Shown here: positions 24,679-28,174 of the stretch, one piece after another | Position numbering within the stretch: the stretch's first letter is position 1 | Layout of the letters: the number at the start of each line of letters is the position of its first letter | Origin: a virus | DNA: 28,174 nt | IMG/VR virus record: IMGVR_UViG_3300046492_000609 | Coordinates: 1-28,174 of that record | Reading direction: 5' to 3' (one strand) | Translations under genes and position numbers: made by a program | The notes under the pieces: generated by a model | The model's input: only the letters and a program-made list of their open reading frames with translations | Databases searched by the model: none | Told to the model about the DNA's origin: nothing

Positions 24679-25264
24679 GCTTGAGGTGCTGGGCGAGCGC
24701 GTGCTCCCACTTGGCCTGGGTGCGGTGTTCGTCGGGGGTGGCGATCCAGAAGGATTTGAATTCCAGGAGTTCGTCCTGGTGGAAGACCTGGTTGGCCATG
24801 CCGTTCATGGTCATCACGGCGGCGAAGGATTTCGCTTCCGGTTGCCAGTTGGCGTGCATCGAGAATTTCGTGCGGCCGTCGTACGCGGGAGAAGGTGGTG
24901 TATCTGTATCTGTATCTGTATCTGTATCTGGGGGCGTTACCGTAACGTTACCCGTCTGTTTCTTCTTTGCGCGGTGGGCTGCAACCCTTGATTTGCTTGA
25001 ATCGGAGACGAATTGGCGCCGATCCCACGCACAGGGCTGACATTCGTCATCGATAAGCCCTTTAGCCATAAACGTGGCTTTAGAGGTAGCCCATTCCTCG
25101 TTACTGATGCGCAGCTGAAACGCGATTTCCGTTTCATGTAACGTTACATGGCCGTTACTGCAACGCAGGCAGAGCAACATGACGAACCGGCGCTGGTCGG
25201 CCTCGTTCATCATCTGGACTTTGGGGTCTGTGGCGAACTCGCCATACATCCGGAACCAATCCAA
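24449..25264 (-). CDS. Replication initiator O-like protein
   Basis: The 271-aa protein begins MDWFRMYGEFATDPKVQMMN when translation starts at TTG 25264, ten bases after GAGGAG; ATG 25249 is an alternative. The N-terminal winged-helix part (ADQRRFVMLLCLRCSNGHVT) is followed by a linker with DTDTDTDTDT and a DnaT/O-like domain (FSMHANWQPEAKSFA). The C-terminus ends RPPLDGEFRRES. It should bind the origin, possibly within its own gene (palindromes at 24942 and 25135), and load the P-like protein and DnaB. It overlaps the P-like gene by 230 bp in another frame. It follows the CII-like gene. Confidence 0.85.
   Translation of the reverse strand: MDWFRMYGEFATDPKVQMMNEADQRRFVMLLCLRCSNGHVTLHETEIAFQLRISNEEWATSKATFMAKGLIDDECQPCAWDRRQFVSDSSKSRVAAHRAKKKQTGNVTVTPPDTDTDTDTDTPPSPAYDGRTKFSMHANWQPEAKSFAAVMTMNGMANQVFHQDELLEFKSFWIATPDEHRTQAKWEHALAQHLKRDQRIQQASGRTTDGRQIASSRRPTRQGPLSAVDRVKGHIADRQAREAAAAAHGQAVGQDDRDVRPPLDGEFRRES
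24899..24928. repeat. (TGTATC)5 hexamer tandem repeat
   Basis: Five exact head-to-tail copies of TGTATC, encoding (Asp-Thr)5 on the minus strand in the O-like linker. Changes in copy number keep the frame, so only the length of the linker would vary. It lies six bases from a GTTAC/GTAAC palindrome cluster and is AT-richer than its surroundings, so it might be the melting element of an origin. Confidence 0.9.
24935..24951. other. Candidate replication origin box, GTTAC/GTAAC palindromes (1)
   Basis: The segment CGTTACCGTAACGTTAC holds three alternating half-sites GTTAC, GTAAC, GTTAC; bases 24942-24951 are the perfect palindrome GTAACGTTAC. The same palindrome recurs at 25138-25147. Location in the O-like gene is as in lambda ori. 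Function as O-protein binding sites is inferred. Confidence 0.5.
25135..25158. other. Candidate replication origin box, GTAACGTTAC palindrome (2)
   Basis: Bases 25135-25150 are the 16-bp perfect palindrome CATGTAACGTTACATG, with a further GTTAC at 25154-25158. It shares the GTAACGTTAC core with the cluster 185 bp away, in the coding region of the O-like gene. Confidence 0.5.
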
Positions 25265-25774: not shown

Positions 25775-25854
25775 CCAATGCGTTTGCGTATTGGCTGATG
25801 ATACGCAAGCGTATTGGTTGAGGCAATAGACTTGTTTCGATACGTTTTTCTATT
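25775..25854. promoter_or_regulatory. Divergent switch region (OR-like) with three operators and two promoters
   Basis: Three related 16-bp operator-like sites fit the consensus AATRCGNNNNCGYATT: 25777-25792 (aatgcgtttgcgtatt), 25800-25815 (gatacgcaagcgtatt) and a weaker 25839-25854 (gatacgtttttctatt). For the minus strand a promoter reads TTGCCT (25826-25821), 17 bp, TATCAT (25803-25798), over operator 2, driving cro. For the plus strand TTGAGG (25818-25823), 17 bp, TACGTT (25841-25846) overlaps operator 3 and would drive cI; it is a weak match, as expected for a maintenance promoter. Confidence 0.75.
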
Positions 25855-25864
25855 AAGGACTGGG

Positions 25865-26542
25865 ATGAAAATCGGGGATCGTTTAGCGCAAGAGATGGAG
25901 AAGCGGGGCATATCTGAGGGTGAGCTGGGGCGCCGCTCAGGTGTGAATCAGCCGACTATCCATCGGATCATCACCGGTGAATCCAAAAACCCCAGGCAGG
26001 ACAATGTCGAGAAGATCGCCAAAGCATTGGGCGTTGCGTCCGATTGGCTATGGCGCGGTGGGGCGCCTGCAGAGCCGGCAATTATTCCATATGTGCCGCA
26101 CGCACCTAAGGGACAGATCGCCATCCCTGAATATGATGTGAGGGGATCAATGGGGCCGGGCGAAACGCCGCCGACGGATTATGTGGAGACCATCACTAAG
26201 ATCACCATGCGGGCCGATTTCCTCCAGGAGCAGGGCATAAACTTCACCAAGGCGGGTAACTTGGCTGTTATCACTGGCTTCGGTGAAAGTATGGAGAAAA
26301 CCTTCAGCAGCGGCGATGCACTGATAATTGACCAAGGCGTGAATGAAGTTGTGATGGACGGCGTTTACTTCTTCACCCTCGACGGATCGATGTACATCAA
26401 GCGCCTACAGAAGCTGCCGAAGATGCTGCGGATGATCTCAGACAACGATGCGTTCCCACCCTACGAAATCAAGGGTCCTGAGCTGCAACTGTTGCGCGTG
26501 CATGCCCGGGTACTGATGGCTTGGAATAGGCGAAAACTATGA
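25865..26542 (+). CDS. CI-like repressor, S24 LexA-type
   Basis: The 225-aa protein has an N-terminal HTH (ISEGELGRRSGVNQPTIHRI, residues 16-35), a linker and an S24 peptidase-like domain with Ser142 in GESMEKTF and Lys179 in SMYIKRL. Their spacing of 37 residues matches the Ser-Lys dyad of LexA. The linker at 91-99 reads DVRGSMGPG, where an Ala-Gly or Cys-Gly cleavage pair would be expected; none is visible there. ATG 25865 has AAGGA five bases upstream; upstream in-frame starts would lie in operators. It maintains lysogeny by binding 25775-25854 and 26970-27011. Confidence 0.92.
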   Translation: MKIGDRLAQEMEKRGISEGELGRRSGVNQPTIHRIITGESKNPRQDNVEKIAKALGVASDWLWRGGAPAEPAIIPYVPHAPKGQIAIPEYDVRGSMGPGETPPTDYVETITKITMRADFLQEQGINFTKAGNLAVITGFGESMEKTFSSGDALIIDQGVNEVVMDGVYFFTLDGSMYIKRLQKLPKMLRMISDNDAFPPYEIKGPELQLLRVHARVLMAWNRRKL

Positions 26543-26954: not shown

Positions 26955-26969
26955 GCCCCCAAAAAAATC

Positions 26970-27013
26970 AATGCGCAAACGTATTGACAGCTATCAATGC
27001 GTAAACGTATCGT
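26970..27013 (+). promoter_or_regulatory. Repressor-controlled early promoter (PL-like) with two operators
   Basis: Two operators match the switch sites: 26970-26985 (aatgcgcaaacgtatt) and 26996-27011 (aatgcgtaaacgtatc). A consensus -35 TTGACA lies at 26984-26989, and 18 bp later TATCGT (27008-27013) can serve as -10, so both promoter boxes are covered by operators. It reads right towards the small early genes and RecT, as lambda PL does towards its recombination genes. Confidence 0.8.
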
Positions 27014-27014
27014 T

Positions 27015-27076
27015 CGCTCATTCCGGTTCACGCCGGAACAACCTGAAACACGACGAAACAGCCCGTTCTTTAAAAA
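27015..27076 (+). promoter_or_regulatory. Early leader with hairpin and boxA-like antitermination element
   Basis: Starting a few bases after the predicted transcription start are CGCTCATT (27015-27022, near boxA CGCTCTTA) and the perfect hairpin TTCCGG-TTCACG-CCGGAA (27021-27038). CGTTCTTTAAAAA (27064-27076) resembles the boxA of bacterial rRNA operons (TGCTCTTTAACA). The 248-bp leader to the first gene (27259) holds no other clear gene. This could be a nut-like site; no N-like protein is seen in the window. Confidence 0.5.
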
Positions 27077-27258
27077 CCAACTGATTCACCGCTGATGGCT
27101 TGGAAAGGCTTTGACGCGCTGGGCGGGGGCGATTCCCTCACTGGCTGCGCCGTATAGACCTCGGGGCCATCGGCAAAACGGAACATTTCACTGCTGCACC
27201 TGGGCGACCGGGTGCATCGGGAAGTAACCGAAACCCACGTCGCCAGGAGGCGAACCCC

Positions 27259-27513
27259 ATGTACGAAGTAATCGTTGAGGAATTCGTCCTCGAGGTGGAG
27301 ATCACCGCCCTGGACGACGAGCAGCCATCACCTGGTGGGCCTGGTGCCCACGAGCTGGAATTCACCATCACCGCGGCGGCGACCTACGACGCCAAGGGCA
27401 AGCGCCACGCCGAGTTCGGCCTGGCCGGCATCGCCCAGCACTACCGCCAGCAGATCGAAACCGCGCTGTGGGTTGAGATTGACAGCCGCAAGCGGCGTCG
27501 GGTGGCGGCATGA
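27259..27513 (+). CDS. Hypothetical 84-aa early protein
   Basis: The protein MYEVIVEEFVLEVEITALDD... has alternating strands at the start and a helical C-terminus ending in SRKRRRVAA. It has AGGAGG eight bases before ATG 27259. It is the first gene of the plus-strand early operon; its stop overlaps the next start as ATGA. Proteins of this type are frequent in Pseudomonas prophage early operons; function not recognised. Confidence 0.8.
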   Translation: MYEVIVEEFVLEVEITALDDEQPSPGGPGAHELEFTITAAATYDAKGKRHAEFGLAGIAQHYRQQIETALWVEIDSRKRRRVAA

Positions 27514-27737
27514 ATACCCATGAAAAGGCCACCGACTTCATCGAAGCGGCCCTCAAGTTGGCGACCAACACCCCAGGCGAGCGTTACCTGGTGATGTCGA
27601 GCGCCGCCTATACCGCCATCAGCTTGGCGCACACGCTCAAGGCCATCGATGGCGCCGAGTACCTGAACTACTGCGAGCGCCTGCGCCAGATCGATGCGCG
27701 CTGGCTGGCCCTTCCTGAACTGAGGCACGGAACATGA
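27510..27737 (+). CDS. Hypothetical 75-aa early protein
   Basis: The protein MNTHEKATDFIEAALKLATN... is helical and neutral, without membrane segment or known motif. It overlaps the genes on both sides by four bases (ATGA), which points to one translationally coupled early operon. Function not recognised. Confidence 0.78.
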   Translation: MNTHEKATDFIEAALKLATNTPGERYLVMSSAAYTAISLAHTLKAIDGAEYLNYCERLRQIDARWLALPELRHGT

Positions 27738-27868
27738 CCATCGTCGCCCGATCCTGCAAGCAGCTCGCCGAAGCCCTGAACAATCAGGGCTTTTTTCTGG
27801 TCGCGGACTTGCCACCCGGCACCCGCATCGAGATTCGCCGCGGAATGATCGTGGTGAAGCTGCCATGA
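27734..27868 (+). CDS. Hypothetical 44-aa early protein containing a terminator
   Basis: The ORF MTIVARSCKQLAEALNNQGF... is coupled by ATGA to the gene before it and overlaps the next start (ATGA at 27865). The overlaps, codon use and the Lys/Arg-rich C-terminus (RIEIRRGMIVVKLP) support it. Codons 14-21 coincide with a perfect terminator hairpin at 27773-27796. Function unknown. Confidence 0.7.
   Translation: MTIVARSCKQLAEALNNQGFFLVADLPPGTRIEIRRGMIVVKLP
27773..27796 (+). terminator. Intrinsic terminator inside a coding sequence
   Basis: GCCCTGA-ACAA-TCAGGGC is a perfect 7-bp stem with a 4-base loop followed directly by TTTTTT. It is in the reading frame of the 44-aa ORF (EALNNQGFF). Active translation or antitermination would be needed to read into RecT. 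Confidence 0.8.
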
Positions 27869-27984
27869 CCACCCCGCAGCGCCGCCGGCGCCGCGCCATC
27901 CGCCTGGCCTCGGCCATCAGCGGAATCCTCTTCATCACCATCACTCTGGTCGGGCCCGCCATCGGCGGCCTGGTCGCACCCTAG
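27865..27984 (+). CDS. 39-aa membrane peptide
   Basis: The ORF MTTPQRRRRRAIRLASAISG... has five consecutive Arg residues followed by one hydrophobic helix (about residues 18-37, ILFITITLVGPAIGGLV). It overlaps the preceding stop as ATGA and ends at TAG 27984, 13 bases before RecT. This positive-inside layout suggests a C-terminal-out inner-membrane peptide. Function unknown. Confidence 0.7.
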   Translation: MTTPQRRRRRAIRLASAISGILFITITLVGPAIGGLVAP

Positions 27985-27997
27985 GAAATCACAGCTC

Positions 27998-28174
27998 ATG
28001 AGCGAAGTAGCGATCAAACCAACGTTCAGCCTGGCGCCGCAGAACATCGACGAAGCGTTGAAGTTCGCCGACTACCTGGCCAACTCCGACCTGGTCCCCA
28101 AGGACTTCCAGCGCAAGCCCGCCAACATCCTGGTGGCCGTGCAGTGGGGCATGGAGCTGGGCCACCAGGATGTT
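27998..28174 (+). CDS. recT: RecT-family single-strand annealing protein (5' part)
   Basis: Only the first 59 codons are in the window. The segment EALKFADYLANSDLVPKDFQ, then KPANILVAVQWGMELG, matches the N-terminal core of RecT/Bet recombinases (LVP..+.GKP.NIL.A.Q.G.ELG). RecT anneals single strands for phage recombination, normally with an exonuclease partner that should lie beyond the window. The gene is truncated by the window end, not broken. Confidence 0.88.
   Translation, partial: MSEVAIKPTFSLAPQNIDEALKFADYLANSDLVPKDFQRKPANILVAVQWGMELGHQDV

Follow-up and report, generated by a model that had tools for sequence, protein, structure and literature searches.

An intrinsic terminator in the reading frame of a conserved small gene is a probable gate in the early operon of Pseudomonas temperate phages

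The intrinsic terminator in codons 14-21 of a 44-aa phage gene is, judging from the sequences of its relatives, kept by selection at the RNA level as well as on the protein. One stretch of DNA would serve two codes, that of a folded protein and that of a transcription stop signal, and compensatory mutations appear to preserve the hairpin even at the cost of altering the protein. The sequence comparisons and the likeness to known phage systems suggest that this terminator is probably a gate in a repressor-controlled early operon, and that it is overcome by processive antitermination on a boxA-headed leader. The gene was studied in a whole IMG/VR virus record of 28,174 bp, which we call the window.

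A sequence-only reading of the window had described a hairpin GCCCTGA-ACAA-TCAGGGC-TTTTTT, and we found it exactly at 27773-27796 on the plus strand. It lies, as had been claimed, in codons 14-21 of the 44-aa gene (27734-27868, plus strand), with GCC as codon 14 and TTT TTT as codons 20-21. The ATGA overlaps described for both sides are also present: one joins the stop of the 75-aa ORF to the start (ATG) of the gene, the other the stop (TGA) of the gene to the start (ATG) of the 39-aa ORF. The stem is GC-rich and has 7 bp, or 10 bp when the flanking A-U and G-U pairs are counted, the loop is 4 nt long and the U-tract follows directly, as in an intrinsic terminator. Folding of the RNA from 27770 to 27798 gave -15.2 kcal/mol (z = -4.3). 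When the same peptide was encoded with random synonymous codons, the probability of the full 7-bp stem with at least 7 U of 8 was 0.007. A generic terminator scan of the window between 20 and 28 kb showed no excess (6 matches vs 6.8 in shuffles), and the longest stem in that scan (10 pairs) was the hairpin of the 44-aa gene.

The right end of the window contains, in this order, a CI-like repressor gene (25865-26542, plus strand), a terminator, a promoter-like site, a 240-nt leader, small genes and RecT. The sequence scan placed the early promoter-like site, TTGACA-18-TATCGT, at 26984-27013 on the plus strand. Two repressor-type operator-like repeats overlap it (26969-26986 and 26995-27012), and a third copy is positioned near the divergent cro-side start (25776-25793). 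Within the leader, a boxA-like CGTTCTTTA at 27064-27072 (CGCTCTTTA in most relatives) is followed by a structured RNA of type A at 27106-27161, whose main helix shows compensatory changes; both are on the plus strand. The first gene of the early transcript (27259-27513) encodes an 84-aa protein without a family. Behind it lie the ATGA-coupled 75-aa gene (27510-27737), with a weak match to phrog_10019, the 44-aa gene, a 39-aa gene for a small, probably membrane-spanning protein (27865-27984) and, 3' of the terminator, the gene of a RecT-like annealing protein (PHROG 561, 27998-28174), which runs off the contig. All these genes are on the plus strand. Elsewhere in the window, a hexamer repeat (GTATCT)n at 24901-24935 encodes a DTDTDT run within a minus-strand ORF of the replication region.

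Relatives were first collected via RecT. Most close relatives in this collection have the hairpin upstream of RecT, always in the frame A-L-x-x-Q-G-F-F. For the second set we searched at the protein level, using patterns that were back-translated and codon-neutral, and obtained 72 viral loci and 12 genome loci. An Undibacterium match (L153) was dropped, since it has a broken frame and does not belong to the family; the other 11 genome loci are from Pseudomonas. With the window, the final set comprises 84 loci from Pseudomonas phages and prophages, with 75 different ORF sequences. The contigs are fragments, and the loci are related, which inflates raw counts. Direct searches of phage databases, queried with this region of the window or with the 44-aa protein, returned only phage phiAH14a and one chance match, and no close relatives were found with the 75-aa upstream protein as a query.

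Across the 75 ORFs, the codons of the stem and the U-tract hardly vary. We observed GCC in 72/72, CTG or TTG in 74/75, CAG in 70/72 and GGC in 74/75 sequences, while the two Phe codons of the U-tract were TTT in 74/75 and 64/66 (138/141 together) against a background TTT usage of 25%. A stem of at least 6 pairs with at least 6 U was present in 47 of 48 distinct sequences, and the expectation with random synonymous codons is 8.9% per sequence. The changes were placed on a tree that rests on one short gene and excludes its hairpin codons. Parsimony gave a mean of 1.5 synonymous changes in the six stem and U-tract codons vs 9.3 in other codons, an approximately six-fold depletion. The Leu and Pro codons just downstream of the hairpin are equally conserved as amino acids and had 19 and 17 synonymous changes. 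Chance or codon bias alone was rejected on the basis of the 47 of 48 sequences and of the difference in synonymous changes. Elsewhere, the clearest frozen stretch is a GCG AGG codon pair that most relatives have close to the 3' end of the 44-aa gene (27846-27868 in the window), where it apparently serves the next, overlapping gene as its Shine-Dalgarno site.

The stem changes in a manner that keeps it paired. Pair 4 is C-G in most sequences, U-G in some and U-A in four loci (L092, L109, L112 and L151), and C-A was never observed. In L092 and L109, the U-A pair comes with a replacement of Gln by Arg. Of 59 distinct sequences, 38 have C-G, A-U, G-C or G-U at pair 7 (23 in shuffles), and pairing over the whole helix exceeds both shuffles and slid controls, which indicates that pairing is what is kept. 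The U-tract shows a similar behaviour. When the second Phe codon was altered (TCT, TTC or GTT), the next codon was TTG or TTT in all 11 sequences, whereas with TTT as the second Phe codon the next codon was TTG in only 7 of 63 and usually CTG. This means that 7 of the 8 bases after the stem remain T when the second Phe codon is lost. The sequence-only reading had proposed that relatives be compared for conservation of the hairpin versus the protein, and we found no relative that keeps the protein and has lost the stem and T-run. Phage phiAH14a shows the reverse, with the stem and U-rich tail retained and an unrelated C-terminal half of the protein. The identical stem-loop-T6 string also occurs in unrelated viral contigs, apparently between genes, as an ordinary terminator. 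The ALxxQGFF motif would therefore be an in-frame reading of a common terminator.

The 44-aa protein is nevertheless genuinely encoded, as indicated by its conservation beyond the hairpin and by a confident AlphaFold model. Leu26, Pro27, Arg35, Arg36 and Met38 are conserved outside the hairpin, and the codons of the non-Met residues vary. The C-terminal half is conserved and carries an RRGM motif, and the model predicts one compact beta-alpha-beta-beta fold with a mean pLDDT of 93.8. Searches with this protein gave no Pfam match, no convincing PHROG family and no significant PDB fold match. The gene is ATGA-coupled to the upstream small gene in 67/84 loci and to the downstream gene in 63/84, and its neighbours differ between phages. 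The upstream coupled protein (27510-27737 in the window) is one of a highly diverse group of small proteins, which are encoded directly 5' of the terminator gene in most loci.

In the relatives, the canonical boxA CGCTCTTTA directly follows an operator/promoter-like sequence and precedes a structured RNA. The pattern [CT]GCTCTTTA was found upstream of the terminator on the same strand in 48/84 loci (49 sites). The opposite strand had 0 sites upstream and 4 downstream, and the same strand had 0 downstream. Seven of 20 further contigs, whose leaders were read, carry boxA 3.1-3.8 kb upstream of the terminator according to the coordinates. Some relatives have no consensus boxA in the entire contig and a few have only variants, e.g. 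AGCTCTTTA. In the L078 contig, the boxA at 28234 was discarded as a leader, being 12.7 kb upstream and apparently in coding sequence. Among the loci, the distance from leader to terminator ranges from 0.6 to 3.8 kb.

Most leaders have a structured RNA 3' of boxA, and these RNAs are of several types. Compensatory pairs numbered 11 in type B and 4 in type A, and both types exceeded the shuffles and the slid controls. Rfam gave no family at the gathering threshold in 20 related loci, and in the window only sub-threshold matches. Type B leaders are also present in the named phages PseuP_224 and Aurca01, where a limited scan did not find the terminator; the negative hairpin scan behind L274 and L275 permits G-U pairs, yet it misses the site of the window owing to the outer G-U pairs. 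The leader and the terminator thus do not seem to be strictly linked. Boxes A heading structured leaders were seen at 27064-27161 of the window, at 1381-1537 of L021 and in L071, L075, L087, L089, L096, L138 and L277-L283.

We infer that the hairpin stops transcription in vivo and that the leader overcomes this stop. RNA polymerase leaving the repressor-controlled early promoter unprotected would stop at the terminator in the 44-aa gene. During lytic growth, an antitermination complex would assemble on the boxA-headed structured leader and travel with the polymerase, which would then pass the hairpin, allowing expression of the remainder of the 44-aa gene, of RecT and of the genes that follow. 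Since the distance between leader and terminator is so variable and no local competing structure was found, a processive modification of the polymerase fits best.

The sequence-only reading had offered two functions, an equivalent of lambda tL1 or a leader-peptide attenuator. The first agrees with the conservation at the RNA level, the covariation and the position in an early operon, where an operator-controlled promoter and a leader headed by boxA precede the terminator; the second was not supported, as discussed below. With lambda tL1 and nutL/N, our system shares an early intrinsic terminator in an operon controlled by a CI-type repressor, a boxA leader before it and recombination genes after it. 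However, tL1 lies between genes, while the terminator described here is within codons 14-21 of a conserved gene. Furthermore, lambda nut has a simple boxB hairpin, and here the boxA, CGCTCTTTA(ACA), is followed by a large structured RNA. The sequence CGCTCTTTAACA closely resembles the boxA of rRNA operon leaders, used in NusB/S10/SuhB antitermination. In contrast to the rRNA boxA, it lies in a phage early leader with another downstream structure, and here the polymerase would have to withstand an intrinsic terminator. The HK022 put RNA, about 70 nt with two stem-loops, is likewise a structured nascent leader RNA just 3' of an early promoter and makes the polymerase ignore far-downstream terminators (PMC9378689). 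The put RNA acts with no need of a phage protein. Unlike put, the leaders described here, which are candidate antitermination RNAs, start with boxA and are of several unrelated-looking types.

The main rival explanation is a terminator gated by translation. Ribosomes arriving from the ATGA-coupled upstream gene would cover the hairpin and the polymerase would pass, with no dedicated antitermination, and faltering translation would shut the operon, making the element a sensor of translation or polarity. The ORF start is placed 39 nt 5' of the hairpin in 61/84 loci, which, like the frequent upstream coupling and the genuine coding of the 44-aa protein, speaks for such a gate. However, conservation of the protein alone explains the constant distance, a long upstream ORF that ends at the start codon is missing from about ten loci, and the boxA-headed leaders are left unexplained. 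We therefore consider this explanation rather unlikely, although ribosome protection via the coupled ORF could operate in addition to antitermination.

A further explanation is that the gene, like arfA and brfA, yields a programmed non-stop mRNA. The message would be cut within the ORF, the N-terminal 21 residues would be released or tmRNA-tagged, and the product would be tied to ribosome rescue. A rho-independent terminator inside a short coding region is a known device of B. subtilis brfA (PMC6881298), and transcripts ending at our hairpin would have no stop codon. In brfA, however, the terminator sits close to the 3' end, and the protein still works when cut to 62 of 71 residues (PMC6881298), whereas here the cut is mid-gene and leaves about 21 of 44 residues. 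The half that would be lost is conserved (RRGM) and part of one confidently predicted fold, and the 44-aa protein has no Pfam match. Such a device is improbable here.

The leader-peptide attenuator, in which a stalling ribosome would sense an amino acid or a drug, has in its favour that a short translated ORF bears the terminator. We found no mutually exclusive upstream pairing beyond that in shuffles, and codons 1-13 contain no stretch that repeats one regulatory codon. The site is deep in the operon, hundreds to thousands of nt inside it, and the product is conserved and, according to the AlphaFold model, folded, all of which makes this mechanism very unlikely. Finally, that the hairpin is a by-product of protein conservation (ALxxQGFF) and GC-rich codon preference is hardly credible: GCC, CTG, CAG and GGC are indeed the codons that these phages use most often for the respective residues, but the near-exclusive use of TTT, the compensatory changes, including Gln to Arg, and the depletion of synonymous changes all argue against it.

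Our results point to an antitermination system in these Pseudomonas temperate phages, of which we found no description in the open-licence papers searched. The early leaders may form a group of processive-antitermination RNAs not described before, which start with boxA and fall into several structural types. The terminator could then be their dedicated dual-coded checkpoint, with the full-length 44-aa product made only by an antiterminated polymerase, a view which we put forward tentatively. The boxA leader and the terminator form a natural paired reporter across dozens of phages, which makes antitermination by diverse leader RNAs directly testable.

Two minor observations concern the leaders. 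The annotated hypothetical protein WAK44840.1 of PseuP_224 (6043-6168 of L274) has its whole reading frame within a structured leader RNA and probably does not represent a real gene. A second leader element precedes the first gene and consists of TTTCACTG, a hairpin and GGGAAA (27182-27220 in the window). Read directly in the window, the hairpin is GCACCTGG-GCGA-CCGGGTGC at 27196-27215 on the plus strand, just 5' of the first gene. The element is also present e.g. in L020 near 2000, in L102 and in L145. The stem sequence of its hairpin is wholly different between phages, and it appears that the pairing, not the sequence, is kept.
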